Assembly: GCA_016875095.1 (NCBI GenBank)
Contig: VGSG01000021.1
Span: 1-49,305, forward strand
DNA: 49,305 nucleotides
Direction: 5' to 3'
Source: Deltaproteobacteria bacterium
Lineage (GTDB): Bacteria; Desulfobacterota; Desulfomonilia; Desulfomonilales; Desulfomonilaceae
The position numbers and the translations under genes are program-made. Shown here piece after piece: positions 6,193 through 31,308 of this stretch. Below the pieces are notes generated by a model. The model ran no database searches. It was not told the DNA's origin and saw nothing but the letters and a program-made list of their open reading frames with translations. The stretch's first letter is position 1. Each line of letters starts with the position of its first letter.

Positions 6193-6260
6193 CTTTCCGT
6201 GTCCGTGGCCAGTGAGTGCGGTCGGCGCCTGACTTTGCGCCGCAGTTTGGAGGAGACATC

Positions 6261-8177
6261 GTGGAAAAGGCCCTGATTCGGTTCTTGCCCGATGACGTGA
6301 CGGTCGAGGCTCGCGCAGGCGAGCTTCTCCTTGACCTGGCCTTGGACGCGGGTGTTTTCATTCCGGCCGCGTGTGGCGGTTCCGGCGCTTGTGGCCAATG
6401 CAAGGTAAAAATCGCCGAAGGCGCGGTGGAGACGCTCGAGATCGATAAACTTGACCGCAAGTTGCAGGCCGAAGGCTATGTGCTCGCATGTCAGACAAAG
6501 GTAACCGGAAACATCACGGTCGAGGCGCCGGAAGCCAAAGTCGGCCGCAAAATGATTCCGCGAGACGAGGCCGAGCGCATGCGGCTGACCGCCCGGCCTA
6601 TGGAATCGCCCCTGGCGCCTGAAATCAATCCGGTGTCTGTGAGGGTCCTCATGGAATTGGATCCTCCGCGGCCGCTGGATAATCTAAGCGATTACGAGCG
6701 GTTGATCCGCACACTAAAAGTCAATCACGACATCAGTCCTGTAGCCGCGGATCTGGACCTGGTCAAACAGCTCCCCAGCGCGCTCAGACAAGGCGATTGG
6801 AAGCTCACCGCGAGCTTGCAGGTTGAAGACATCCCGGGGTGCGACAAGCCTGTCTATAGACTCCGCGGTGTCCTGCCCGGACATTTGAATCAGAGCCAGA
6901 CCGCCCTCGCAGTCGATATCGGGACCACCTCCCTGTGGGGTGAACTCATTGATCTGACGAGCGGGGAAGCGCTGGCCAAAGCCTCCCGATACAACCCCCA
7001 GATCTCTATGGGCGACGACGTGATCAGCCGGATCGTCTTTGCCCTGAAAAAAGATGGCCTCCAAAAGCTTCAGGCCGAGGTGGTCAAGGGAATCAACGAG
7101 ATAATCGAGGAGACTCTCAAGGTGAGCGGTGTCCCCCGGGAATCCTTGGGTTACCTGGTTGCCGCGGGAAACACGGTAATGACCCATTTTCTTCTTGGGC
7201 TGAACCCTCGATTCCTCCGAGAGAGCCCGTATGTGCCGGTAGCGCTGAACCTGGAACCCGTGCCCGCATCCACGATCGGCCTTCAGTTACCCCAATATGG
7301 ATTGGTGCAAGCTTTTCCGTGTGTGGCCTCGTACGTGGGAGGCGATATCGTAAGCGGGGTGCTGGCCACAGGCATGTGGGACTCGGACCTGATGACGCTC
7401 TTCATTGACATCGGAACCAACGGCGAGATCGTGGTTGGCAACCGGGACCTCCTCATGACCGCATCGTGCTCCGCGGGCCCCGCGTTCGAAGGCGGCGGTC
7501 TGGAACATGGGATGAGAGCGGCTCCAGGCGCGATTGAAGGCATACTCATCGATCCTGACACCTTTGAACCGATGATCAGAACCATCGATGCTAAACCCGC
7601 TCTCGGCATCTGCGGCTCAGGGATCATCAACATCGTCTCCCAGATGCTCAAGACCGGAATCCTCAACCGCAACGGCAAGTACTCCACCGACCTCAAAACC
7701 GACCGGATACGGAACGGGCGAAGCGGCCATGAGTACGTGATCTGCCGGGCGGGGGAATCGGGAATCAAGCAGGACATTGTCCTGAGTGAAGTTGACCTGG
7801 ACAATCTCATCCGGGCCAAGGGCGCTATGTTTTCGGGCTATACGTGCGTGTTAGATAAGATCGGCGTGAGCGTGGACGCTCTCGATCGGGTGATCATTGC
7901 GGGAGCTTTCGGGAGTTTCATCAACCTGGAGCACGCGATCACCATTGGCCTGCTCCCTGACATCGACCGGGACAAGTTTGCGTTCATCGGGAATTCATCG
8001 CTTAAGGGCGCCAGGCTCGCGGCCCTCGATCGGAACCTCTTTCAAACCGCAAGGGCCGTCTCGCGGACCATGACCAACGTTGAGCTCTCAGAGGACGCCT
8101 CGTACATGGACAATTTCATGGCCGCGCTCTTTTTTCCCCATACCCGAGATGAGCTTTTCCCGTCCGTGAAGCTGTAG
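6261..8177 (+). CDS. RACo-like ferredoxin/ASKHA ATPase (corrinoid activation protein)
   Basis: RACo-type proteins use ATP to drive an electron onto the inactive Co(II) form of corrinoid proteins. The N-terminal domain is a plant-type [2Fe-2S] ferredoxin: Cys38, Cys44 and Cys47 in AACGGSGACGQCKV, with a fourth Cys in VLACQTK. From about residue 215 the ASKHA-fold part begins with AVDIGTTSLWGELIDL, followed by IDIGTNGEIV and GICGSGIINI. The start is GTG at 6261, directly after GGAGGAG. The product is about 638 aa, the usual size. No corrinoid protein or methyltransferase lies nearby, so the partner cannot be named. Confidence 0.88.
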   Translation: MEKALIRFLPDDVTVEARAGELLLDLALDAGVFIPAACGGSGACGQCKVKIAEGAVETLEIDKLDRKLQAEGYVLACQTKVTGNITVEAPEAKVGRKMIPRDEAERMRLTARPMESPLAPEINPVSVRVLMELDPPRPLDNLSDYERLIRTLKVNHDISPVAADLDLVKQLPSALRQGDWKLTASLQVEDIPGCDKPVYRLRGVLPGHLNQSQTALAVDIGTTSLWGELIDLTSGEALAKASRYNPQISMGDDVISRIVFALKKDGLQKLQAEVVKGINEIIEETLKVSGVPRESLGYLVAAGNTVMTHFLLGLNPRFLRESPYVPVALNLEPVPASTIGLQLPQYGLVQAFPCVASYVGGDIVSGVLATGMWDSDLMTLFIDIGTNGEIVVGNRDLLMTASCSAGPAFEGGGLEHGMRAAPGAIEGILIDPDTFEPMIRTIDAKPALGICGSGIINIVSQMLKTGILNRNGKYSTDLKTDRIRNGRSGHEYVICRAGESGIKQDIVLSEVDLDNLIRAKGAMFSGYTCVLDKIGVSVDALDRVIIAGAFGSFINLEHAITIGLLPDIDRDKFAFIGNSSLKGARLAALDRNLFQTARAVSRTMTNVELSEDASYMDNFMAALFFPHTRDELFPSVKL

Positions 8178-17554: not shown

Positions 17555-18811
17555 TCACGCCTTGATGGCCCGGAGCAAAAGGTTGATCATCTGTTCCGTG
17601 CTCGCGATTGTGGGCTGTTTCTTCGAGAGCATCATGCGCGCGAGCGCCTCATGCTCGAACGCGCCTTGGACGAGATGAAGATAATAGCTGATTTCGAAAT
17701 CCTTTCGGAAATGGCCGCTTTGCCGCCCAGCCTCGACAATGGATCGTATCAGTTTCGTAAAGCGCCGGGTATTCTGGTATTCTTGAGATTCATAAAACTT
17801 GGGATTTCTGTACAGCTCAAGTATTAAAACTCTGGTCTCCGATTCTCGGATCTGAAAATCCAGCGCCCACCGCCTGAGCAAATATAAGAGCTGTTCATAA
17901 GGATTCAACGCGCCCGAGAAGACACGCTCCAACTCGTCAGCCAATTCGATGAACCAGGTGCCCAGCACTGAGAGAAGAAGCTGTTCCTTGCTCTTGAAGT
18001 ATTGATAGATGGAAGCTTCAGCTATGCCTGCTTTTCCGGCTATTTCGGAGATCGTGGCCCCGCCGTAACCCTTCTTGCCGAATACTTCCGAGGCAACTTC
18101 CACGATGGAGCGCCGCCTAAGCTCCCCGCGGGTCGGCTCATCGCCATTCTCACTTCCAGTCGGCTGTTCACGCCTCCATATAGCTGCCTTTACGAGCGAG
18201 CACAGAGCATCCGCGGCCTCATTGGGGTCATAGGGATCGCCGAAGAACAGCCATCGCAACACAATGCTGTCGATCGCGCCGAAAATCATCTCCAGAACGA
18301 GAATAACCTCTACGTCAGGGTCCACTTCCCGGTCTCGTATGCCTTCTCGGATCGCCTCTACCGCGAAGGCGCTGTATTCTCTTATCATTTCATAAGCCGG
18401 GGACTGGTAGAAAGCAGGTAAGGTGCGGAGCTCGCTGAGCAAAATTGACGTGTAGCTCTTATTAACAGAGAGATCTCTGAGCTGATGCCAAAGTAACTTC
18501 CTAATCTTGGGCTCAGCCCCCTTCATTCCTTGAAGATGCTCGGTGATACCTGCCAGAGTCTCCCTCAGATGTCTTTCCGGGACGGTAACGATCAAGTTTT
18601 CTTTTGTTTTGAAATATTGAAAGATGGACGCCTCATGAACCCCGGAATCATGAGAGATATCAGCGATGGCCGTATCGTGAAAACCGCGGGCCGCGAAGAT
18701 GCGCTCCGCGGATTCTATGATAAGCTGGCGCTTCTTATCTGCCGAAGAGCTTCTTCGTTTCGTGGAGGACCCCGTTTTGACAGCGCTTCCGGGCAATCCG
18801 GTATAATCCAT
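17555..18811 (-). CDS. Tandem TetR-family regulator (two complete TetR modules)
   Basis: A 418-residue protein made of two TetR repressors in line. Module 1 spans about 27-212, with the DNA-binding part RIFAARGFHDTAIADISHDS...SIFQYFKTKENL. Module 2 spans about 231-418, with EVFGKKGYGGATISEIAGKA...SIYQYFKSKEQLL. Both end in helical ligand-binding and dimerisation regions. Most TetR proteins have a single module and about 200 residues, so this is a duplication-fusion. CGGGAG precedes the ATG. It is divergent from the bam operon, so it is the leading candidate for its regulator, perhaps sensing an aromatic acyl-CoA; that is inference from position. Confidence 0.9.
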   Translation of the reverse strand: MDYTGLPGSAVKTGSSTKRRSSSADKKRQLIIESAERIFAARGFHDTAIADISHDSGVHEASIFQYFKTKENLIVTVPERHLRETLAGITEHLQGMKGAEPKIRKLLWHQLRDLSVNKSYTSILLSELRTLPAFYQSPAYEMIREYSAFAVEAIREGIRDREVDPDVEVILVLEMIFGAIDSIVLRWLFFGDPYDPNEAADALCSLVKAAIWRREQPTGSENGDEPTRGELRRRSIVEVASEVFGKKGYGGATISEIAGKAGIAEASIYQYFKSKEQLLLSVLGTWFIELADELERVFSGALNPYEQLLYLLRRWALDFQIRESETRVLILELYRNPKFYESQEYQNTRRFTKLIRSIVEAGRQSGHFRKDFEISYYLHLVQGAFEHEALARMMLSKKQPTIASTEQMINLLLRAIKA

Positions 18812-19660: not shown

Positions 19661-19888
19661 GTGAGGAAAAAGGATGTTCACCCGGCGAATGATCAGATCC
19701 GTCCCATGAAAGAAGAAGACCTCGATGCCGGCGCCGTAATCAATAGCATGCCCTTCGGAGCCTCTCGAACGGAATATTGTCGTGAAAAGCCCGGTTGGGT
19801 TGCCAAGGGCTTAAGAAATGCCATGTTTTGGGTTACAGGAGCGCGGACGGCCATATTGCCAGGCAAGTGTAAGAGGTTAGGAGCATGA
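19661..19888 (+). CDS. Possible leader ORF overlapping the bamB start
   Basis: A GTG at 19661 opens a 75-codon frame whose TGA stop overlaps the bamB ATG as ATGA (19885-19888), the layout of translational coupling. The product has no recognised motif and no convincing ribosome binding site, so it may simply be a chance frame in the long leader. Confidence 0.25.
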   Translation: MRKKDVHPANDQIRPMKEEDLDAGAVINSMPFGASRTEYCREKPGWVAKGLRNAMFWVTGARTAILPGKCKRLGA

Positions 19889-21891
19889 GGTACGCAGAAA
19901 CAGGGTTCAATTTAGAGGTTGATTTAACCCGAGGAAACATTGAGAGGGTAGAAACGGACCCAAGAGACACCGAGCTTTATCTGGGAGGGCTGGGCACGAA
20001 CGCCAAGATATTATGGGAGAGGGTGCCCCCCGAAGTCGAACCCTTTTCCCCCGAAAATCTCTTAATATTCGGCGCCGGTCTCTTGTGTGGCACACCTGCC
20101 ATCGGTTGCAATCGTACCATCGTTTCCACGATTTCGCCCCAAACATTGCTCATGGCGTTTTCAATGATGGGCGGATTCTGGGCCCCGGAATTGAAGTACG
20201 CAGGCTACGACAAGGTGATCCTTCGCGGCAAGTCCCCCAACCTGGTCTATTTGTGGATAAACAATGACAAGGTGGAGATCCGGGACGCCACTCATTTGAA
20301 GGGCAGAGGCGCTGTTGAAACTGCGGAACTTATTCGACAGGAATTGAAAGAACCGAGAGCCCAGGTGGCTGCTATCGGGCTGGCGGGTGAAAACAGGGTC
20401 TATTTTGCCTCCATCGAACAGGGCAGGTCCAGCGCCAGTAGAGGCGGAATAGGCGCGGTTATGGGAGACAAAGGGGTAAAGGCGATCGTCGTTCGTGGAA
20501 CAAAGGACATTAATGTCGCCCGACCGGCCGAGTTCTTGGCGCTTTGCAACGAAGTGATGAGCTATATAAAATTTCGCAATGAGAATCCCATTCCGGGCGT
20601 TATGCCTATTCTAGCGGGGCTTGGCTCGCCCCAAGAGATGAAGGTCCATGATGAAAAGTGGCACACTGAAAATTTCATGTGGGGAAATTCACGGGTGCGC
20701 CAGAAAGATTTCTGGAATGAAGAGGTCGCAAGGCAATGGGCTGAGACTCTGGATAGTATGCGGACGCGGTTGATCAGTTGCTACAACTGTCCGATGACAT
20801 GCGGGGCGACTATCTCTCCTCCCGGACTTCCGACCTACATGATGAAATGCTTTTCGAAGCTTACTTATACCATGGCGGCCTTTGCAGACCTTGAATTCGG
20901 TTTGGGTATCGCCCAAAGCGCTACGGAGTATGGGGTGGACGGATTCTCAACCCCTCAAGTTATGGCCTTTGCCCTTGAGCTTTACGAAAACGGCATATTA
21001 ACAGACGATGACTTCCCGGGAATGCCGTCAGACAATGAGGGGAGATTTTACTGGTTACTTGACAAAATTGTTCGGCGGGAAGGCATTGGAGACGTTCTAG
21101 CCAATGGCACCTATTGGGCGGCCAGGCAGATTGGCAAGGGCGCGGAGGCCTATGCTCATAACAATATTAAGAAGCATGAACAACTGCCTCTCAAGCTATC
21201 AATGTTGAATCCCATTTATTTCCTCATGTACGCTACCGGCGAGAAGATAAACATCACTCAGATTGAAGGGCAGTTCCCCCAGGCGCCCTGGCCCACGAGA
21301 GAAGAGAGAGAAGAGTTTGTAAAGGATTGGTTCCAAGTTCCCGATGAAAAGTTTAAGCAATATCTCCTGGACTGGGAGCCGCGTGGAGAAAAGTCGATGC
21401 CCTTTTACCCGACCGTTGAAATGTGTTGTGATATCGTCGACTGGCAGGAGAAGATGCACTACATTGATGACGGTCTCGGGATGTGCTCAGGTTTGTCATC
21501 ATTTCCCCTGAAGCCCCCATACCATATGCATAATTACCCGGCGTTTATCTCATCGGGCGCGGGGATTGATATGGATGAAGCCAAATTAACGCAAGCGGCG
21601 AAGAGATACCGGACGTTAGTGAGGGCCATCAATATAAGAAGAGGCATGAGGAGGAAGGACGACAAGCCCCCGGAGAACCATTGGAAGAAGAGATTTCCCG
21701 AACTCGAAAAGGAACTCTTGGATACGTATTACAAATTCAAAGGATGGAACGATCAGGGTATTCCCACCAAGGAATCTCTGCATGAATTAGGTTTGGATTA
21801 CGTGTCCGAAGACTTCGAAAAGAGAGGGATCTATTCGGATAACGATGGCGCTTCCTCCAAAGAGACCTCGCCGGAAACGGAGAAGAACTAA
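19885..21891 (+). CDS. bamB: Class II benzoyl-CoA reductase catalytic subunit BamB (AOR-family tungsten enzyme)
   Basis: Catalytic subunit that reduces the aromatic ring of benzoyl-CoA to cyclohexa-1,5-diene-1-carbonyl-CoA, using tungsten bis-pterin and a [4Fe-4S] cluster. The 668 residues follow the aldehyde:ferredoxin oxidoreductase fold. The N-terminal pterin domain has the YLGGLGTNAKILW and GGFWAPELKYAGYD segments. Cys299, Cys302 and Cys306 (CYNCPMTC) plus Cys534 in DGLGMCSG match the cluster ligands of AOR. AGGAG precedes the ATG. The gene order bamB-C-D-(DUF3795)-E-F-G-H-I supports BamB over a simple aldehyde oxidoreductase, which would not need the Hdr and Nuo partners. The charged C-terminal tail (about 25 residues) looks disordered. 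Confidence 0.85.
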   Translation: MRYAETGFNLEVDLTRGNIERVETDPRDTELYLGGLGTNAKILWERVPPEVEPFSPENLLIFGAGLLCGTPAIGCNRTIVSTISPQTLLMAFSMMGGFWAPELKYAGYDKVILRGKSPNLVYLWINNDKVEIRDATHLKGRGAVETAELIRQELKEPRAQVAAIGLAGENRVYFASIEQGRSSASRGGIGAVMGDKGVKAIVVRGTKDINVARPAEFLALCNEVMSYIKFRNENPIPGVMPILAGLGSPQEMKVHDEKWHTENFMWGNSRVRQKDFWNEEVARQWAETLDSMRTRLISCYNCPMTCGATISPPGLPTYMMKCFSKLTYTMAAFADLEFGLGIAQSATEYGVDGFSTPQVMAFALELYENGILTDDDFPGMPSDNEGRFYWLLDKIVRREGIGDVLANGTYWAARQIGKGAEAYAHNNIKKHEQLPLKLSMLNPIYFLMYATGEKINITQIEGQFPQAPWPTREEREEFVKDWFQVPDEKFKQYLLDWEPRGEKSMPFYPTVEMCCDIVDWQEKMHYIDDGLGMCSGLSSFPLKPPYHMHNYPAFISSGAGIDMDEAKLTQAAKRYRTLVRAINIRRGMRRKDDKPPENHWKKRFPELEKELLDTYYKFKGWNDQGIPTKESLHELGLDYVSEDFEKRGIYSDNDGASSKETSPETEKN

Positions 21892-21911
21892 TTGAAGAGG
21901 TGGTATCGGGC

Positions 21912-22460
21912 ATGGGCGAAAAAAAGAAGAAGATTATCAAGTCCATAAAGATCGATGTGGAAAAATGCAACGGGTGCAGGTCATGTGAGATGATCTGCTC
22001 CGCGTTCCATGCTACGCCGAAATACAGCAGCAATAATCCGGCAAGGTCACGCATTCGGCTGATTCGCGACCCACTGAGAGATATATACCTTCCTGTGTAT
22101 GCCGGTGAGTATGCTCCAGCCGAGTGCATGGGCAGAGACAAATACGTGATTGCCGGGAAAGAATACGAGGAGTGCGGTTTCTGCAGGGCTTCCTGCCCGT
22201 CCAGGGACGTTTTCAAGGAACCCGATTCCGGCCTCCCATTGAAGTGTGACATGTGCGAGGACGACCCGCCCCAGGAAAAGCCCTTGTGTGTTCAGTGGTG
22301 CATTCATGATGCGCTGATCTACGAAGAAAGGGAAGAAGAAGTTGAAGAAGAAGTGAAATTGGAAGACGTGGAGGTCGGACTGGAATCCATGATCGACAAG
22401 TACGGTTTGGAGAAGGTCATGGATACGGTTACGCGGATTTCGGCCTCAAAGAAGAGCTGA
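21912..22460 (+). CDS. bamC: BamC-like ferredoxin subunit of benzoyl-CoA reductase
   Basis: A 182-residue iron-sulfur protein that, in the characterised BamBC core, carries electrons to BamB. Cys groups are CNGCRSCEMIC (CxxCxxCxxxC), CGFCRASC, and CDMCEDDPPQEKPLCVQWC, enough for about three [4Fe-4S] clusters. The last 45 residues are acidic and helical (EEREEEVEEEVKLEDV). The ATG at 21912 was preferred to the GTG at 21900, since GAAGAGG lies at better distance. It starts about 20 bp after bamB, so translation is probably coupled. Confidence 0.82.
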   Translation: MGEKKKKIIKSIKIDVEKCNGCRSCEMICSAFHATPKYSSNNPARSRIRLIRDPLRDIYLPVYAGEYAPAECMGRDKYVIAGKEYEECGFCRASCPSRDVFKEPDSGLPLKCDMCEDDPPQEKPLCVQWCIHDALIYEEREEEVEEEVKLEDVEVGLESMIDKYGLEKVMDTVTRISASKKS

Positions 22461-22492: not shown

Positions 22493-23644
22493 GTGGAAAC
22501 TGTAACCCCTTATAAAGAGATCATCGATGTCATCAAAGCCAGCGGCGGAGAAGCATTCAAGAGGTGCTTCCAATGCGGACTATGCGATACTGTTTGCCCG
22601 TGGAACAGAGTCAGGGCTTTCAGCATGCGCAAGCTGGTCCGAGAGGCGACGTTTGGTTTGACGGAAATCGAAAGTGAAGATATCTGGCGCTGTACGACCT
22701 GCGGACGATGTCCCCAGCAATGCCCCCGGGACGTAAGACAGATAGAATCCGGCGTCTCCTTGCGCAGGATTGCCAATGAATATGGGGTGTTTCCCGCTCC
22801 TGTCAAGACTGTCCGCACCATAAACGCAGGCCTGGTCGGTCAAGGAAACCCTTTCGGTGAAGATCGCGAAAAGAGAGCTGCTTGGGCCGAAGGCCTTTCC
22901 GTGAAACCGTTCACCGAAGGAATGGACATTCTTTATTTTCCCGGTTGTTATCTTAGCTATGACCCCAGGCTGAAAAAGGTGGCTCGAGCCACAGCCAACA
23001 TTCTCAACGCGGCGGAAGTCGACTTCGGCATACTCGGCCCCAAGGAGAATTGCTGCGGAGAAAGCATCCGTAAGACGGGCGATGAGGAATTATTCAAGCG
23101 CCTGGCCAAAGAAAACATCAAAACCTTCATCGATAACGGGGTCAAGAAAATCCTCGTCTCTTCACCTCATTGTTACCATACCTTCACGAACGAGTATCCC
23201 GAATTTAGGGTGAACTTTGAAGTAGTTCATATCTCGCAATATTTGTGCGAGTTAGTGAACGCGGGAAGGCTTCAGGTCAAAAAGGATTATGGAAAGAAAG
23301 TAACGTATCACGACCCTTGTTACCTGGGTCGACATAACGGAATATATGACGAGCCGCGGGAGGTTCTAGAGAAGATCCCGGGCTTAGAGCTGAATGAGAT
23401 GCTTGAGTCCCGCTCGGATAGCCTCTGCTGTGGAGGGGGAGGCGGCAGAGTTTGGATGGAGACCCAAAAGGGTGAGAGGTTCTGCGATCTCAGGATAGAA
23501 CAGGCTCTTGGGCTTGGCGCCGAAGTGCTGGCTACTTCCTGCCCCTATTGCATTACCATGCTTGAGGACAGCAGAGTAACCATGGATCTTGCGGAAAAGA
23601 TCGAGGTGAAGGACCTCACGGAGATCATCCAGGAATCGATTTAG
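22493..23644 (+). CDS. bamD: BamD-like HdrD-type subunit
   Basis: A 383-residue fusion of two [4Fe-4S] ferredoxin motifs and two CCG domains, as in heterodisulfide reductase HdrD. Cys25, 28, 31 and 35, then Cys67, 70, 73 and 77, are ferredoxin ligands. PGCYLSYDPR, NCCGESIRKTGDEE, CYLGRHNGIYDEPRE and LCCGGGGGRVW are the CCG-domain motifs that bind the unusual [4Fe-4S] cluster in Hdr. In the Bam complex this subunit is thought to pass electrons between the Hdr-like part and the core. It starts at GTG 22493 after GAGGGA, 32 bp beyond bamC. Confidence 0.85.
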   Translation: METVTPYKEIIDVIKASGGEAFKRCFQCGLCDTVCPWNRVRAFSMRKLVREATFGLTEIESEDIWRCTTCGRCPQQCPRDVRQIESGVSLRRIANEYGVFPAPVKTVRTINAGLVGQGNPFGEDREKRAAWAEGLSVKPFTEGMDILYFPGCYLSYDPRLKKVARATANILNAAEVDFGILGPKENCCGESIRKTGDEELFKRLAKENIKTFIDNGVKKILVSSPHCYHTFTNEYPEFRVNFEVVHISQYLCELVNAGRLQVKKDYGKKVTYHDPCYLGRHNGIYDEPREVLEKIPGLELNEMLESRSDSLCCGGGGGRVWMETQKGERFCDLRIEQALGLGAEVLATSCPYCITMLEDSRVTMDLAEKIEVKDLTEIIQESI

Positions 23645-23660
23645 GGGACAAGGGATCCCT

Positions 23661-24203
23661 ATGTTGCGCCTGTCAAAATACGACATCGATCCGTCGGAAG
23701 AGGCGAAAGCCATGGCGATAAATCCCGATTTCCTTGCTCCTTGCAGTCTTTATTGCGGCGTCTGCGCCATTTACATTGCACACCGCGACAACAACATTAA
23801 ACTGAAGGAGCGGCTGATAAGTCTCTACAAAGGCGGAACTCCCGGCAAGGGCACGCTTCCTAATAGTGAAAATCTCGCCATAGAAGATATTAAGTGCCGC
23901 GGCTGCTTATCGGATGAACGGTTTATGCATTGTCGCCAGTGCGAGATCAGGAACTGCACAAGGGAGAAAGGATTCGCCGGGTGTCATGAATGCAATGACT
24001 TTCCTTGTCACTACATTGACGATTTTTCCATGGCGGTAGGTAAGAAGGTTATCCTTCGAGCCGTCCCATATCGACGACAGTTCGGCGCCGAGAAATGGAT
24101 TCGAGACGAAGAGGCCCGTTATATATGTCCCGAATGCGGCAACAAAGTTTTTCGTGGCGCGATGAAATGTAATCAATGCAAGACGCAACTGGATCTGGAC
24201 TAA
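23661..24203 (+). CDS. DUF3795-type Cys-rich protein inserted in the bam operon
   Basis: A 180-residue protein with a Cys-rich N-terminal region (LAPCSLYCGVCAIYIAHRDN, KCRGC, HCRQCEIRNC, GCHECNDFPC) that looks like DUF3795. It ends in a zinc-ribbon-like module (YICPECGNKVFRGAMKCNQCKTQ). DUF3795 proteins have no assigned biochemical role. It sits 17 bp after bamD and 97 bp before bamE on the same strand, so it is part of the transcription unit, although it is not one of the eight standard bam subunits. The 15 or so Cys could hold metal or Fe-S clusters. GGGGACAAGGG precedes the ATG. Confidence 0.8.
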   Translation: MLRLSKYDIDPSEEAKAMAINPDFLAPCSLYCGVCAIYIAHRDNNIKLKERLISLYKGGTPGKGTLPNSENLAIEDIKCRGCLSDERFMHCRQCEIRNCTREKGFAGCHECNDFPCHYIDDFSMAVGKKVILRAVPYRRQFGAEKWIRDEEARYICPECGNKVFRGAMKCNQCKTQLDLD

Positions 24204-24300: not shown

Positions 24301-27300
24301 ATGGCAGAAGTCTTGATGCTCAATGAGGAAAGCCGGCAACTCCGCGGAACCCTTACAGACGCCGATCTTGGAGACGTCTTGGTTGTGGGTGGAGGGATCA
24401 GCGGCATACAGGCCTCGCTTGATCTGGCCACCGCCGGATTCAAGGTCTACCTGGTCGAAAAAGCGCCAAGCATTGGCGGCCATATGGCGCAGTTGGACAA
24501 GACCTTCCCCACCAACGACTGTTCCATGTGAATACTCGCTCCCAAGCTGGTCGAGGTCGGCCGGCATCCCAATATAGAGGTCCTCACCTATACGGAAGTA
24601 GACCGTGTGGAGGGGGAGGTAGGAGATTTTCACGTAACCCTGACTAGGAAGCCCCGATACGTTCTTGAGAACAAATGCACGGGTTGCACTACTTGTGTAG
24701 AATATTGTCCCGCCAAATATCCCGACCAGTATAATCAGGACATATCTAAGAACAAGGCGGTCCATATATACTTCGCCCAGGCAATTCCCCTTATTACGTA
24801 TATTGATGAGAGCTGTCTTTACCTCAAGGAGAATAAATGCCGCATATGCGAAGCAGTGTGCAAGAATAACGCAATAGATTTGAAACAAACGGCGGAGAAA
24901 AGGGAAATACAGGTAGGCGCGATCCTTCTTTCCGCCGGCCTTGAGCCCTTTGATCCAAAGGTGAAGAAGGAATATCATTACGAGGAGTTTGCGAACGTCG
25001 TGACCAGCATGGACTATGAGCGCCTGTTATCCTCAACGGGTCCGTACCAAGGGGAGATACTGCGTGCTTCCGACCAAAAGCATCCCCGTAAGATAGCGTG
25101 GATTCAATGCATCGGTTCGAGACGGGTTACACCCGGCGAAAACAGCTATTGTTCAGCCGTATGCTGCACGTATGCGCAGAAACAGGCGATTGTAACCAAA
25201 GATCATGACGCCGCAGCCGAGTGCGTAATATTTCATAACGATGTCCGTTCATATGGGAAAGACTTTGAGCGATACTTTGAGCGGACGGAGAAACTTCCCG
25301 GGGTTCGATTTATCAGAAGCTACGCATCAATAGTGAGGGAAGATACCGAAACCAAGAACGTCACCGTGCGATATTCTACAAACGAAGACGGTGTAAAGGA
25401 AGAAGAGTTCGACATGGTGGTGTTGTCCGTCGGATTGAATCCTCCTGTTGATATGAAGTCTATTGCCGATAAATTCGGCATAGAGCTCAATCCTCACCAA
25501 TTTTGCAGGGTCGACGCCGTCAATCCAATGGCTACGAGCAGGCCGGGGATTTTTGTAAGCGGGGGCTTCCAGGGCCCGCTAGATATCCCCGAGTCGGTCT
25601 TCAGCGCCAGTGGGGCTGGATCCCAAATCGGAGAGCTCCTTGATTACAGACGAGGGAATCTTGCCAAAGAAAGGATATATCCGCCGGAAAGGGATGTGTC
25701 CCAGGAAGAGCCAAGGATAGGAGTATTTGTATGTCATTGCGGGGCCAATATCGGAAGGATAGTGAATGTTCCTGAAACGGTCGAATACTGCAAAACTCTC
25801 CCGAACGTTGTCTATGCTCAAGAGCAACTGTTTTCATGCGCCACGAACTCCGCCAAAGGCATAACGGATGTAACGAAAGAAAAAGGGCTCAATCGAGTAA
25901 TTGTCGCCGCATGCAGTCCCAGGACCCTCGAACCGCTTTTCCGGGATACACTTCGGGAGGCGGGAATTAATCAATACTACTTTGAAATGGCTAACATCAG
26001 GGAGCACAACTCCTGGGTCCACTCGAAAGAAAAGGACGAGGCCACGCAGAAGGCAAAGGATATCATCCGGATGTCGGTAGCGCGAGCCGGTCGGTTGGAG
26101 CCGTTACGAGAATTTGACCTGCCGGTCAACAAGGCCGCGCTGGTGATCGGTGGAGGCATTGCCGGCATGAATTGCGCGCTTTCCATAGCCAACCAAGAAC
26201 ATGAAGTTCACCTGGTGGAAAAGAATGCGGAGCTGGGGGGAATGGCGCGAAAGATTCATTCCACGCTGGACGGGCTTGATGTTCAGGAGTACTTGCGCGA
26301 TCTCATAGCAAAGGTATATCGACATCCCTTGATACATGTCTATCACGGCGCGACGATCACGGGCGCCACAGGTTATGTGGGCAATTTCGAGACCTCAGTG
26401 AAGTATGAAAACGGATACGCCAAGATAAAACACGGCGCAGCGGTTCTTGCCATAGGCGCGGATCTTCATAGACCCGTGGAATACCTTTATGGAGAGGATG
26501 AGAGGGTATTGACCCACCTTGAGCTGGAGGAGCGGATCGCCCAAGGAGACGAAAGGGTAATTAACGCAAAAAGTCTTGTGATGATACAATGCGTGGGCTG
26601 CAGAAATGAAGAGAGGAATTACTGCAGCCGGTTGTGTTGCAGCGAGTCTGTGAAGAACGCGTTGAAACTGAAAGAGATAAATCCCCAGATGGACATCTAC
26701 GTCCTCTTTCGAGATATGAGAACCTATGGGTTCAACGAGGATTACTACCGCGAGGCTTCTAACAAGGACATAAAGTTCATCCGTTATGAGCCGCAGGATA
26801 AGCCACATGTGGCGCCCGGTCAATCTGAAGACGGCCGGTCCGTGCTGAAGGTCACGGCGGCCGATTATATCTTAGGGAAAAAGCTTGAATTGGACGCCGA
26901 CATAATTGCGCTGGCCGCGGCTGTTGTTCCGGCTACAGCGACCAAGGAAATGGCGGGACTATTCAAGGTAACATTGAACCCCGACGGCTTCTTCAAAGAA
27001 GCCCATGTGAAATTGCGGCCCGTTGAGTTTGCCACGGAAGGGGTATATGTGTGCGGGTTGGCTCACTATCCCAAGTTCATACAGGAAACGATCAACCAAG
27101 CTTATGGAGCTGCGGGCCGGACCTTAACGCTTCTCTCACATGATATAGTTGTAGCCTCCGGCTCTGTTTGCACCGTGAATGAGGATAAATGCGTTTCGTG
27201 CGGAGCATGTATAACGGTGTGCAACTATGGCGCCATAGAGTTTGTGGAAACACCCCGCGGCCGAAAGGCCAGGGTCAATCCTGTCCTCTGTAAAGGAGAC

Positions 27301-27441
27301 GGTGTCTGCAACACGGTGTGCGCCACGTCTGCCATCGTGCTGAAGCACTTCACCGACGAAGAGCTATTGAGCGCAATCGACGCGGCGTTTCCGAAGGAAG
27401 AGGTCGTGCAGCGAATGGACGTTGCGGTTGGAGACGTGTAG
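24301..27441 (+). CDS. bamE: BamE: HdrA-like selenocysteine flavoprotein
   Basis: A 1046-residue protein if the TGA at 24529-24531 is read as selenocysteine 77 ([15 protein letters not shown]; HdrA has Cys there). Order of domains: FAD site GGGISG at 30-35; U77; ferredoxin Cys126/129/132/136 and a second Cys set 172/180/183/187; an HdrA-type FAD region; a second HdrA-like module with [14 protein letters not shown] near 613 and a CVGC pair; and two C-terminal ferredoxin motifs ([11 protein letters not shown], then [11 protein letters not shown]). HdrA flavins are sites of electron bifurcation in methanogens, and a similar role is proposed for BamE. GAGGTGA precedes the ATG. A hairpin follows the TGA. 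Confidence 0.88.
24546..24565 (+). promoter_or_regulatory. Bacterial SECIS hairpin of bamE
   Basis: GCTGGTC (24546-24552) pairs with GGCCGGC (24559-24565) over 7 bp, two of them G-U, around the 6-nt loop GAGGTC. It begins 14 nt after the TGA. GGU in the loop resembles the SelB-binding site of E. coli fdhF. The matching stretch of the Cys-type HdrA at 49205 has lost this pairing. Confidence 0.78.
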
Positions 27442-27491
27442 AAACATCGGAACGAGTAAACCTTGGATTACCAAGCACGAGGTGAGAAGAT

Positions 27492-28259
27492 ATGAGCGCG
27501 GGAGTTAAATTTAGGCCGAAAATCTTAGGGTTTGTATGTCATTGGTGAGCATACGGCGCAGCCGACTTAGCTGGAGTTTCCAGAAGTCAATATACAACCG
27601 AAATGAGACTGATTCGCGTCATGTGTTCCGGACGGGTGGATCTGGCGCATGTATTCCGGGCTTTCTCAAAGGGAGTGGATGGGGTGTTCATCGGCGCGTG
27701 CCACCTAAATGAATGTAACTATATTACTCACGGGAATTACCACGCCTTAACTATGGTGAACTTGGCCAAGAAATTGCTGGAGCACATAGGGCTGAAGCCG
27801 GAAAGGTTGACTATCGAATTTATGTCCGGCAGTGAAGCCAACCTTTTTGTGGAAGGGGTCAATGGTTTCGTCAAGAAGGTGAAGGCGCTGGGACCCATCG
27901 GCCAAGCTGAAGGCTTGGACGAAAAGGAATTGCAATTTAAGCTGGAAGCGGTCACGCGGCTTATCCCTTACATCAGACTGGTGGAGAGGGAAAGACTGAG
28001 GCTGCCTGCTATGCCGGAAGAGGAATATAGCAAATTTTTCGCCAGTGACGAGCTGAAGCGGTTGTTCGATGAAACCATCGCCGATAAATTGGCCGTGAGC
28101 CAAATTGTGTCACTGCTGCGGGAAGGACCTCTTCCAACGGCGGAAATGGCTAAGAGGTTGGGCCTAACCCCGTCAGAGGTGTCCAGGCATTTGAGCGTTT
28201 CATCGAGGCAAGGCCTGGTCCGATACGATGAAACCCGGAAGTGCTTTGCTCTCGCATGA
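27492..28259 (+). CDS. bamF: BamF: MvhD-like selenoprotein with a C-terminal winged-helix-like tail
   Basis: Starting at ATG 27492 (GAGGTGAGAAG just upstream) and reading the TGA at 27546-27548 as selenocysteine 19, this is 255 residues. The N-terminal part is MvhD-like: FVCHW-U-AYGAADLAG, then Cys45, and Cys70/Cys75 in GACHLNECNY. Together they give the four to five ligands of the [2Fe-2S] cluster that feeds electrons to HdrA. Residues of about 205-255 (GPLPTAEMAKRLGLTPSEVSRHL...LVRYDETRKCFAL) resemble an ArsR-type winged helix. Calling the gene from its first downstream ATG (27603) would lose the active-site end. A SECIS-like hairpin follows the TGA. Confidence 0.85.
27564..27588 (+). promoter_or_regulatory. 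SECIS-like hairpin of bamF
   Basis: GACTT (27564-27568) pairs with AAGTC (27584-27588), and CTGGA (27571-27575) pairs with TCCAG (27579-27583), with an AG bulge and a GTT loop. It starts 15 nt after the TGA, in the range of bacterial SECIS elements. Confidence 0.65.
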
Positions 28260-28306: not shown

Positions 28307-28759
28307 ATGGACAAAGACAGAATCGACCGGATAATTGACAAACACGGCTGCGAGCCCAGTTATCTCATTCAGGTGTTACTGGACATTCAGGCGGAAAACA
28401 ACTGGCTTCCCAGGGAGGCATTGGAGAGGGTCGCTGAAAGATTGCAAGTTTCTATGACCCGGATTCAACATATCGCCACCTTCTACAAAGCCTTCAGTTT
28501 GGTTCCTAAGGGGCGCCATCAAATTCACATCTGCGTGGGAACCGCGTGCCATGTTCGAGGCGCCTCGCGTGTGCTCGACACAGTGGAAGGCCTGACGGGA
28601 ATTAAGCCGGGCGAAACGGACCTGGACTTAAAGTTCAGTCTGGAGACCGTTAACTGCCTCGGCTGCTGTGCTTTAGGACCGGTGGTGGAGATCGATGGAA
28701 AGACTCACGGTAAGATGTCGCCGGCAGAGACAGCGGACGTGGTAAAGAATTATGAGTAA
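28307..28759 (+). CDS. bamG: BamG: NuoE-like [2Fe-2S] subunit
   Basis: A 150-residue thioredoxin-like ferredoxin of the NuoE/HoxE family, which works with a NuoF-type flavoprotein to exchange electrons with NAD(H). The [2Fe-2S] ligands are in CVGTAC (Cys-x4-Cys) and CLGCC (Cys-x3-Cys). Preceding helices (LIQVLLDIQAENNWLPREALERVAERL, split by family-typical residues) match the N-terminal domain. The frame is open to 28241 inside bamF, but ATG 28307 after GGACAGAGG gives the normal length. It is followed 9 bp later by bamH. Confidence 0.87.
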   Translation: MDKDRIDRIIDKHGCEPSYLIQVLLDIQAENNWLPREALERVAERLQVSMTRIQHIATFYKAFSLVPKGRHQIHICVGTACHVRGASRVLDTVEGLTGIKPGETDLDLKFSLETVNCLGCCALGPVVEIDGKTHGKMSPAETADVVKNYE

Positions 28760-28768
28760 GGGACGATT

Positions 28769-30697
28769 ATGGCAAGGATAAACTCCCCTGACGATTTGGA
28801 GAGAATCAGACAAGAAATACGATCCCGGAGAGACCCAAACGAGCCCTGCGTCTCAATATGCGTGGGCGCCGGTTGTCTTGCCTCTGGCGCAGGCGAGGTC
28901 TTATCTGCCTTTGAAGCGGAGATTGAAAAACAGGGATTAAAGGCAGAGGTGGATACCAAAGGAACCGGGTGCCCCGGATTTTGTGAGAGAGGGCCCGTTG
29001 TGGTTATTTATCCTGAGGAGATTTGCTATCTACAGGTAAAGCCTGAAGACGTTCCCGAGATTGTCTCTCAGACCCTAGAGGAGAAGAAGCTTGTTGATCG
29101 TCTGCTCTATGTTGACCCATCCACAGGCGAAAAGGCAACCCATGAATACGATATCCCTTTCTACAAGAATCAAGAACGAATCATAATCGGCAGTAACATT
29201 AAAATTGATCCCAAGAGCATCGATGACTACCTGGCCATTGGTGGATATTCCGCGTTAGCCAAAGCGCTATTGCAGATGACCTCCGACCAGGTGTTGGAGG
29301 AAGTCAAGAAATCCAATCTGCGGGGAAGAGGAGGCGGAGGCTTTCCTGCGGGGAGGAAGTGGGAAGGATCGCGTAACGCTCCGGAGCCGATAAAGTATGT
29401 AATTGTCAACGCGGATGAGGGTGATCCGGGAGCATTCATGGATAGGGCCCTCCTTGAGGGAAACCCTCACTCGATCCTCGAGGGGTTGACTATTGGCGCC
29501 TATGCCGTCGGATCCCACGAGGGCTACATTTACGTCAGACAGGAATATCCCTTGGCGGTAGAAAACGTGACCATCGCCATCAAGCAGGCCGAGGAGTATG
29601 GCCTTCTCGGGAAAGATATCCTCGGCTCAGGCTTTGATTTCGTCGTTAAGGTGCACAAGGGAGCGGGCGCTTTCGTCTGTGGTGAATCAACCGCTCTGAT
29701 GACGGCGTTGGAAGGTAGGGCGGGAGAGCCGAGACCCAAGTACATCCGCTCCAACGTCGTGGGCCTCTGGGGTAGACCCAGCGTTCTGAACAACGTCGAG
29801 ACATGGGCCAATGTGCCGCTCATCATCAACAACGGGGCAGACTGGTTTACTCAGTTTGGAACTGATGGCAGCAAGGGCACGAAGATATTTTCCCTGGTCG
29901 GAAAGATAAACAACACGGGCCTCGTAGAAGTGCCCATGGGTGGTACCCTAAGACACATTATTTACCAGATCGGCGGTGGAATCCCCGGAGGCAAGAAGTT
30001 CAAAGCAGTGCAGACCGGCGGACCGTCCGGCGGATGCCTCCCTGAGGAACTGTTGGATTTGCCGGTTGGTTTTGATGAACTGACCAAGGCCGGGTCTATG
30101 ATGGGATCCGGTGGGATGATCGTTATGGACGAAGATACCTGCATGGTTGATGTGGCCAGGTACTTCCTTAACTTCCTTACGGATGAATCCTGCGGCAAAT
30201 GCGTCCCCTGCCGCGAAGGCATCCGGCAGATGCTCAAGACTCTGACAAATATCACTCAAGGAAAGGGAAGAGAGGGGGATATCGAACTCTTGGAGCAGTT
30301 AGCCGAGGTAGCCGGCGAGGCTTCCCTTTGCGCCTTAGGTAAGAGCGCCCCTAACCCTTTTCTCAGCACGCTGAAGTATTTTAGAGATGAGTATGAGGCC
30401 CACATAAAGGAGAAGCGATGCCCGGCTCTATCCTGTAAGGAGCTGATCGCCTTCCATATTGACCCGGAGAAGTGCCGAGCCTGCACGATTTGTGATAGGA
30501 AATGCCCGTCCGACGCGATCAAAGGCGGCAAGAGCCTGATTCATATCATTGACCAGGAGAAATGCACAAAGTGCGGAACCTGCTTTGAAGTGTGCCCTCC
30601 CCGTTATGATGCGGTGAGGAAGATCTCAGGCGAACCTGTTCCGCCTCCTATTCCTGAAGAAGCCAGGACTATCGTCAGAAAGAGAAAGCAAAAATGA
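28769..30697 (+). CDS. bamH: BamH: NuoF-like FMN/NADH subunit with C-terminal ferredoxin
   Basis: A 642-residue NADH-binding flavoprotein. An N-terminal thioredoxin-like [2Fe-2S] region (CVSICVGAGCLASG, GTGCPGFCERGPVV) is fused to the NuoF core. There RGRGGGGFPAGRKW binds NADH and FMN, NADEGDPGAFMDR is the FMN loop, and ESCGKCVPCREG with a later Cys (SLCALG) binds a [4Fe-4S] cluster. Two more ferredoxin motifs are at the end (CRACTICDRKC and CTKCGTCFEVC). It is the site where electrons leave to, or enter from, NAD(H) in the Bam complex model. ATGA overlap (30694-30697) couples it to bamI. Confidence 0.88.
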   Translation: MARINSPDDLERIRQEIRSRRDPNEPCVSICVGAGCLASGAGEVLSAFEAEIEKQGLKAEVDTKGTGCPGFCERGPVVVIYPEEICYLQVKPEDVPEIVSQTLEEKKLVDRLLYVDPSTGEKATHEYDIPFYKNQERIIIGSNIKIDPKSIDDYLAIGGYSALAKALLQMTSDQVLEEVKKSNLRGRGGGGFPAGRKWEGSRNAPEPIKYVIVNADEGDPGAFMDRALLEGNPHSILEGLTIGAYAVGSHEGYIYVRQEYPLAVENVTIAIKQAEEYGLLGKDILGSGFDFVVKVHKGAGAFVCGESTALMTALEGRAGEPRPKYIRSNVVGLWGRPSVLNNVETWANVPLIINNGADWFTQFGTDGSKGTKIFSLVGKINNTGLVEVPMGGTLRHIIYQIGGGIPGGKKFKAVQTGGPSGGCLPEELLDLPVGFDELTKAGSMMGSGGMIVMDEDTCMVDVARYFLNFLTDESCGKCVPCREGIRQMLKTLTNITQGKGREGDIELLEQLAEVAGEASLCALGKSAPNPFLSTLKYFRDEYEAHIKEKRCPALSCKELIAFHIDPEKCRACTICDRKCPSDAIKGGKSLIHIIDQEKCTKCGTCFEVCPPRYDAVRKISGEPVPPPIPEEARTIVRKRKQK

Positions 30698-31308
30698 GCG
30701 AAATCCTTCTTCGGATTGACGGAATAGAAGTGAAAGCAAAAGAAGGGATGACCGTCCTGGACGCGGCGCGCAGCGCGGGGATATCTATTCCAACACTGTG
30801 CCACCACGAGAAATTGGAGCCCTATGGGGCTTGTCGGCTTTGCCTGGTGGAATTGGATATGCGCGGCTGGACAAGACTAGTGGTTTCCTGCCTTTACCCG
30901 GTAGCCAAGGATTTGGTTGTAACCACCCGGTCGGAGAAGATAGATCGAATTCGCAAAACGATCTTGGAGCTGCTGCTGGCTCACGCTCCCGATGCCTTTG
31001 ACTTGCAGGAGTTGGCTCAAGAGTATGGCGCAGACCGGGACCGTTTTGAAAAAGAGGCTTCCTTCTGCATTCATTGTGGTCTTTGCGTAAGATACTGCGC
31101 TGAAGTTAAGAAGAAGCACGCAGTTGGATTCGTTAACCGAGGCGCAAGTCGAGAGATCAGCTTCATTCCTGAGGTGGCCGCTCAGGAGTGCTGGAACTGC
31201 AAAGAATGTTTTCCGCTTTGCCCTACAGAGGCGCTCCAAGCCGCCTATGTTCTGACCGAGGCGCTCCTATCCCCCCACCTTCATTCACAATCGAGCCAGA
31301 CAAGATAA
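30694..31308 (+). CDS. bamI: BamI: NuoG/HoxU-like iron-sulfur subunit
   Basis: A 204-residue protein that corresponds to the N-terminal electron-wiring part of NuoG. The [2Fe-2S] site is PTLCHHEKLEPYGACRLCLVEL with a later Cys in VSCLYP. FCIHCGLCVRYC and ECWNCKECFPLCP give two [4Fe-4S] clusters. It lacks the large molybdopterin domain of NuoG, as HoxU-type subunits do. It overlaps bamH by four bases and closes the operon. Confidence 0.85.
   Translation: MSEILLRIDGIEVKAKEGMTVLDAARSAGISIPTLCHHEKLEPYGACRLCLVELDMRGWTRLVVSCLYPVAKDLVVTTRSEKIDRIRKTILELLLAHAPDAFDLQELAQEYGADRDRFEKEASFCIHCGLCVRYCAEVKKKHAVGFVNRGASREISFIPEVAAQECWNCKECFPLCPTEALQAAYVLTEALLSPHLHSQSSQTR

Follow-up and report, generated by a model that had tools for sequence, protein, structure and literature searches.

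The window, by which we mean the whole analysed stretch of 49,305 nucleotides, carries a gene cluster in the order bamB-C-D-(DUF3795)-E-F-G-H-I, that is, of the bamBCDEFGHI type. BamF is a small electron-carrying subunit of the tungsten complex that opens benzene rings without oxygen. The genes and signals considered here are the following:

19885..21891, forward strand: bamB, tungsten aldehyde-oxidoreductase-type catalytic subunit, matching 4z3w
21900..22460, forward strand: bamC, iron-sulfur subunit
22493..23644, forward strand: bamD, HdrB/C-like CCG-domain subunit
24301..27441, forward strand: bamE (HdrA-like) with corrected start; Sec in PTNDCSMU
24529..24531, forward strand: UGA read as Sec in BamE (CSMU), followed by a frozen hairpin
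27475..27491, forward strand: Shine-Dalgarno-like gaggtgag region before ATG 27492; similar stretches precede nearly all Sec-type orthologues
27492..28259, forward strand: bamF, 255-residue selenoprotein with an FlpD/MvhD domain (11-134), then a helical linker and, at about 203-254, a C-terminal winged-helix domain
27546..27548, forward strand: UGA read as selenocysteine 19 of BamF (C16-H-W-U19)
27564..27588, forward strand: extended hairpin with lower stem GACUU/AAGUC, lineage-specific
27571..27583, forward strand: core SECIS hairpin CUGGA-GUU-UCCAG, conserved across Sec-type BamF and lost in Cys-type genes
28307..28759, forward strand: bamG, NuoE-like subunit (2Fe-2S thioredoxin-like); start 28307 placed by eye from the sequence
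28769..30697, forward strand: bamH, NuoF-like subunit
30694..31308, forward strand: bamI, NuoG-N-like ferredoxin subunit

The product of bamB matches Geobacter metallireducens BamB (PDB 4z3w) over its full length with 1267 bits; the next oxidoreductase reaches 220. The identification of the gene at 27492 as bamF, made in a preliminary description of this DNA, is borne out by its match to the FlpD family (see below) and by its place in a bam cluster with a genuine BamB; these observations support a predicted role of BamF as a subunit of a class II (W/Se) benzoyl-CoA reductase complex. Among known systems the Bam complex of G. metallireducens shares the operon position and companions of BamF as well as the full-length BamB, though the organism is a different one and the likeness rests on operon and BamB. 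Huwiler and colleagues (PNAS, 2019) reportedly found tungsten and selenocysteine in the purified Geobacter complex. The DUF3795 gene lies at 23661-24203, between bamD and bamE.

The bamF frame runs from ATG 27492 to the TGA at 28257-28259 and is interrupted by a single internal TGA at 27546 (codon 19). When this codon is read as Sec the N-terminus becomes MSAGVKFRPKILGFVCHWUAYGAADLAG, and the read-through protein matches Pfam FlpD (PF02662; methyl-viologen-reducing hydrogenase delta subunit) over residues 11-134, unbroken across the UGA, with an E-value of 6.4e-46 and 155.8 bits (curated cut-off 22.3). MvhD in the PDB is matched at 1.1e-39, and in all five PDB alignments shown the UGA falls on the second Cys of a CNWC motif, so that the alignment with MvhD that had been proposed as a check places residue 19 on a known cysteine of the solved structures. 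An AlphaFold2 model (mean pLDDT 86.8) has the MvhD fold: the best Foldseek hit is 5odh_D (MvhD in the HdrABC-MvhAGD complex), with an E-value of 9.3e-14 and a TM-score of 0.86 by target length. BamF therefore resembles MvhD/VhuD/FrhD (FlpD; F420-non-reducing hydrogenase delta subunit) in domain, fold and five Cys columns, but it adds the helical linker and the C-terminal winged helix, for which the structure search returned nothing closer than generic winged helices.

Default ORF calling selects ATG 27603, the first ATG past the internal TGA and 111 bases 3' of 27492, and so yields a frame of 27603-28259. This call is what favours taking UGA 27546 as a true stop, with translation from 27603 giving a truncated FlpD protein; yet a protein begun there would lack the domain's first strand and two conserved Cys/Sec. 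Of 130 distinct Sec-type loci, almost all have an upstream start from which the UGA is codon 15-19; this start is nearly always an ATG with a purine-rich Shine-Dalgarno-like stretch, and in 102 of the loci an ATG precedes the UGA by exactly 18 codons, the distance seen in the window. Among 21 near orthologues, codons 2-18 show 51, 41 and 174 differences at the first, second and third position, matching the pattern of codons 33-135. Because differences concentrate at third positions, the stretch from ATG to UGA is taken to be translated. On these comparisons we place the start of BamF at ATG 27492, not at 27603, in agreement with the earlier proposal of a start 111 bases upstream of the obvious one: the gaggtgag stretch, the conserved start and the coding-type substitutions before the UGA all point to it.

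To compare codon 19 we gathered BamF relatives from one GTDB genome scan, from the window's order (18 genomes) and from its phylum (395 genomes), after which the DNA was compared. The 155 distinct BamF-like frames span Desulfobacterota lineages, Firmicutes (e.g. Sporotomaculum syntrophicum) and one spirochaete bin. S. syntrophicum, a cultured relative, carries BamF of the Sec type (L094/L095). Codon 19 is covered in 150, with TGA in 138, TGC or TGT in 12 and any other codon in none; sense codons other than Cys in close relatives, which would have spoken against Sec, are thus absent from this set. One apparent case without TGA (L137) has undetermined bases at the site. The in-frame UGA hence aligns with Cys of homologues, as in bacterial selenoproteins, and the window's genome encodes SelA, SelB, SelD and a tRNA-Sec with anticodon UCA. 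The selD gene of the same genome (G000:C7:103502-104416, L272) itself has an in-frame TGA and its product is probably a selenoprotein.

Further evidence comes from the hairpin just 3' of the UGA. The core starts 22 nt past the UGA, whereas the extended form including the lower stem starts at 15 nt. Among 122 distinct Sec-type genes, each pair of the upper stem (27571-27575/27579-27583) is preserved 118-122 times; three inner pairs of the five in the lower stem form in just 6-12 of these genes. The lower stem was therefore rejected as a general part of the BamF hairpin. Of the two-step hairpin after 15 nt that had been described, the spacing and the upper stem hold, while the second step is, by pair conservation, restricted to close relatives of the window.

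Selection on the hairpin is visible at synonymous sites. We compared, across 134 genes, 21 fourfold-degenerate codons whose first two bases are conserved: at hairpin codons 27-30 a single third base accounts for 94-100%, while at the remaining 17 codons, which serve as internal control, no third base exceeds 59%. As an external control, the 12 Cys-type genes show no greater conservation at codons 27-30 than at other codons. Single-sequence folding is modest (z about -2, moderately better than shuffles), and an Rfam search of the hairpin returned no SECIS match; bacterial SECIS are too variable for good Rfam coverage, so we do not count the latter against it. The case for a bamF SECIS rests on the frozen synonymous sites, its strongest evidence, together with the Cys-type control.

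These patterns bear on both alternatives to selenocysteine. Synonymous sites downstream are frozen solely in TGA-bearing genes, relatives have TGA in 138 of 150 cases and Cys in the remainder, and codons 1-18 evolve as coding sequence, which leaves termination at 27546 with virtually no probability. Readthrough as another residue (e.g. Trp) or through a general code change would open the frame equally well, but we found no positive support for it: relatives show nothing but Cys at codon 19, the genome has a dedicated tRNA-Sec(UCA) with selA/B/D, and a codon-specific hairpin is under selection. We consider this option extremely improbable. Taking FlpD homology across the UGA, the codon tally, the frozen hairpin codons and the sel genes together, we conclude from comparative data that UGA 27546 encodes Sec19 of BamF, as had been suggested for the segment FVCHW-U-AYGAADLAG. 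The motif named there as UxxA is to be corrected, however: it is CxxU (C16-H-W-U19).

The 12 Cys19 genes also have Cys20 (CNWCC). Cys-type BamF (L131-L136, L138-L142) often has an extra Cys in ADLCGVS and is found in SelB-positive genomes, frequently with a separate Sec-type copy. Loss of SelB as a cause of the Cys type is ruled out, since SelB is present in 15 of 15 genomes checked. In a tree of longer BamF sequences the Cys-type genes fall in at least two regions, but a tree of the FlpD domain alone does not reject a single Cys-type group (AU p 0.66); with this domain, two independent Sec/Cys switches would thus not be separable from one.

A second selenocysteine was found in the neighbouring gene. 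Default calling begins BamE at GTG 24607, but its true start is ATG 24301, and the frame from there includes UGA 24529, which is followed by a strongly conserved SECIS-like hairpin (GCUGGUCGAGGUCGGCCGGC). Counted from the UGA, codons +6 to +11 each have the same third base in 70-71 of 71 Sec-type BamE genes, while in 21 Cys-type genes these codons vary at the third base. We conclude, again by comparison of codons, that BamE carries Sec at UGA 24529, which was overlooked earlier. Where both genes are readable, Sec in both partners occurs at 61 loci (not all independent), BamF-Sec with BamE-Cys at 10 and Cys in both at 12; BamF-Cys with BamE-Sec was not seen among these loci, a pattern resting on few lineages. 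Strict co-change of the two genes fitted the first 44 loci, of which 32 were Sec-Sec and 12 Cys-Cys, and was dropped because of the 10 BamF-Sec/BamE-Cys loci. In solved homologues N-terminal HdrA clusters hand electrons to the [2Fe-2S] cluster of MvhD, from which they reach the bifurcating flavin in a way not yet understood (PMC12350162). The presence of Sec in both BamE and BamF suggests that selenium may tune this segment of the path.

FlpD domains have five Cys columns, which in BamF numbering are 16, 19, 45, 70 and 75, and a [2Fe-2S] cluster needs four ligands. Every frame of the collected loci that covers them has Cys at positions 16, 45 and 75 and either Cys or Sec at 70. Position 19 alone varies further: besides Cys and Sec it is Asp (3), Ser (3) or Thr (1), these seven cases being distant FlpD domains. 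With the four invariant Cys positions present, BamF is predicted to carry a [2Fe-2S] cluster. The preliminary description had residue 19 as a ligand or neighbour of this cluster and raised the possibility of a seleno-ligated site. Because 16, 45, 70 and 75 are invariantly Cys (or Sec) whereas 19 tolerates Asp, Ser and Thr, it is more likely that Sec19 sits beside the cluster, in the second sphere, than that it is a ligand; conservation of the Cys columns thus favours the neighbour, and ligation in BamF becomes the less likely part of that proposal. Direct ligation through selenium would agree with the CxxC/CxxU motif, in which every BamF-like gene has Cys or Sec at this position, and with the conservation of five Cys/Sec in most FlpD proteins; Asp or Ser can also serve at times as a [2Fe-2S] ligand. 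Nonetheless, the four other positions are Cys/Sec without exception and stay intact where 19 is Asp, Ser or Thr, and we regard ligation by Sec19 as rather unlikely, if well short of negligible.

A more suitable candidate is found among the MvhD paralogues of the window's genome (C44, two copies) and its family, which differ from BamF in having Cys19 and Sec70 and show their own frozen synonymous sites after the TGA. The Sec70 motif is GUH (G000:C44: L001, L004, L251, and relatives), and position 70 is one of the four invariant cluster-Cys positions. Since Sec70 falls on such a position, the idea of a seleno-ligated cluster moves from BamF to these paralogues, which are the likelier candidates for a seleno-ligated [2Fe-2S] site.

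The following scheme would account for these observations. SelB with Sec-tRNA would decode UGA 27546 at the SECIS hairpin. The BamF cluster would be held by C16, C45, C70 and C75 and BamF would carry electrons between BamE, the HdrA-like subunit, and the remainder of the complex (both by analogy with solved MvhD/Hdr complexes). U19 would lie in the second sphere, where its selenol may shift the cluster potential or act as a redox or proton relay, and the partner subunit, BamE, would hold a second Sec (CSMU) along this electron path. We consider this explanation as a whole (Sec19 decoded at a SECIS, BamF as [2Fe-2S] electron carrier, U19 in the second sphere) highly probable. A more specific version is that Sec19 is a non-ligating selenol relay (redox or proton) paired with the BamE Sec on the neighbouring electron step, and that FlpD branches place Sec differently around one kind of cluster (19 in BamF, 70 in MvhD). 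This version is tentative, a serious possibility that we would not yet call probable; if true, ligand and second-sphere selenium would both be offered on one FlpD scaffold.

Parts of this picture are already known, namely Sec in MvhD/VhuD and selenium in this class of benzoyl-CoA reductase. A 2026 review gives CxxU and two Sec for archaeal FrhD/MvhD/VhuD (PMC13188914), so position 19 is an established Sec site there. MvhD selenoproteins are described for Desulfobacterium and Desulfococcus in passages of PMC2702500 and PMC5109826. For Desulfococcus multivorans, BamE is given as Sec-containing, as in the window; the selenoprotein list in that passage of PMC5109826 names BamE and mvhD, not BamF. 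New, though modest, are the frozen-codon evidence, the BamE Sec in this cluster, the reassignment of the likely seleno-ligated site from BamF to MvhD and two forms of the BamF C-terminus.

As for practical consequences, gene callers trim 37 residues from the N-terminus of BamF and 102 from that of BamE, and with them a conserved Cys/Sec site in each. This class of reductase operates close to the bottom of the biological redox range, and the corrected models put two selenocysteines in partner subunits along its electron path. Sec and Cys versions of BamF in SelB-positive genomes offer a clean natural comparison, and Sec at two positions around one kind of cluster (BamF, MvhD) allows the part played by selenium at [2Fe-2S] sites to be tested.

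The two C-terminal forms of BamF (examples: the window, L070, L081) were each seen at 45 loci. One has a two-[4Fe-4S] ferredoxin domain and about 280 residues, with bamG not found; the other, present in the window at 28090-28256, is the winged helix of the 255-residue protein, with bamG nearby. Elsewhere in the window, the right end of the contig (49030-49300) holds another HdrA-like fragment, which matches BamE with 125 bits, a 418-residue protein with two TetR_N matches (17555-18811, reverse strand) is a tandem TetR-type regulator, and 6216-8177 encodes a RACo-type corrinoid protein reductive activator.
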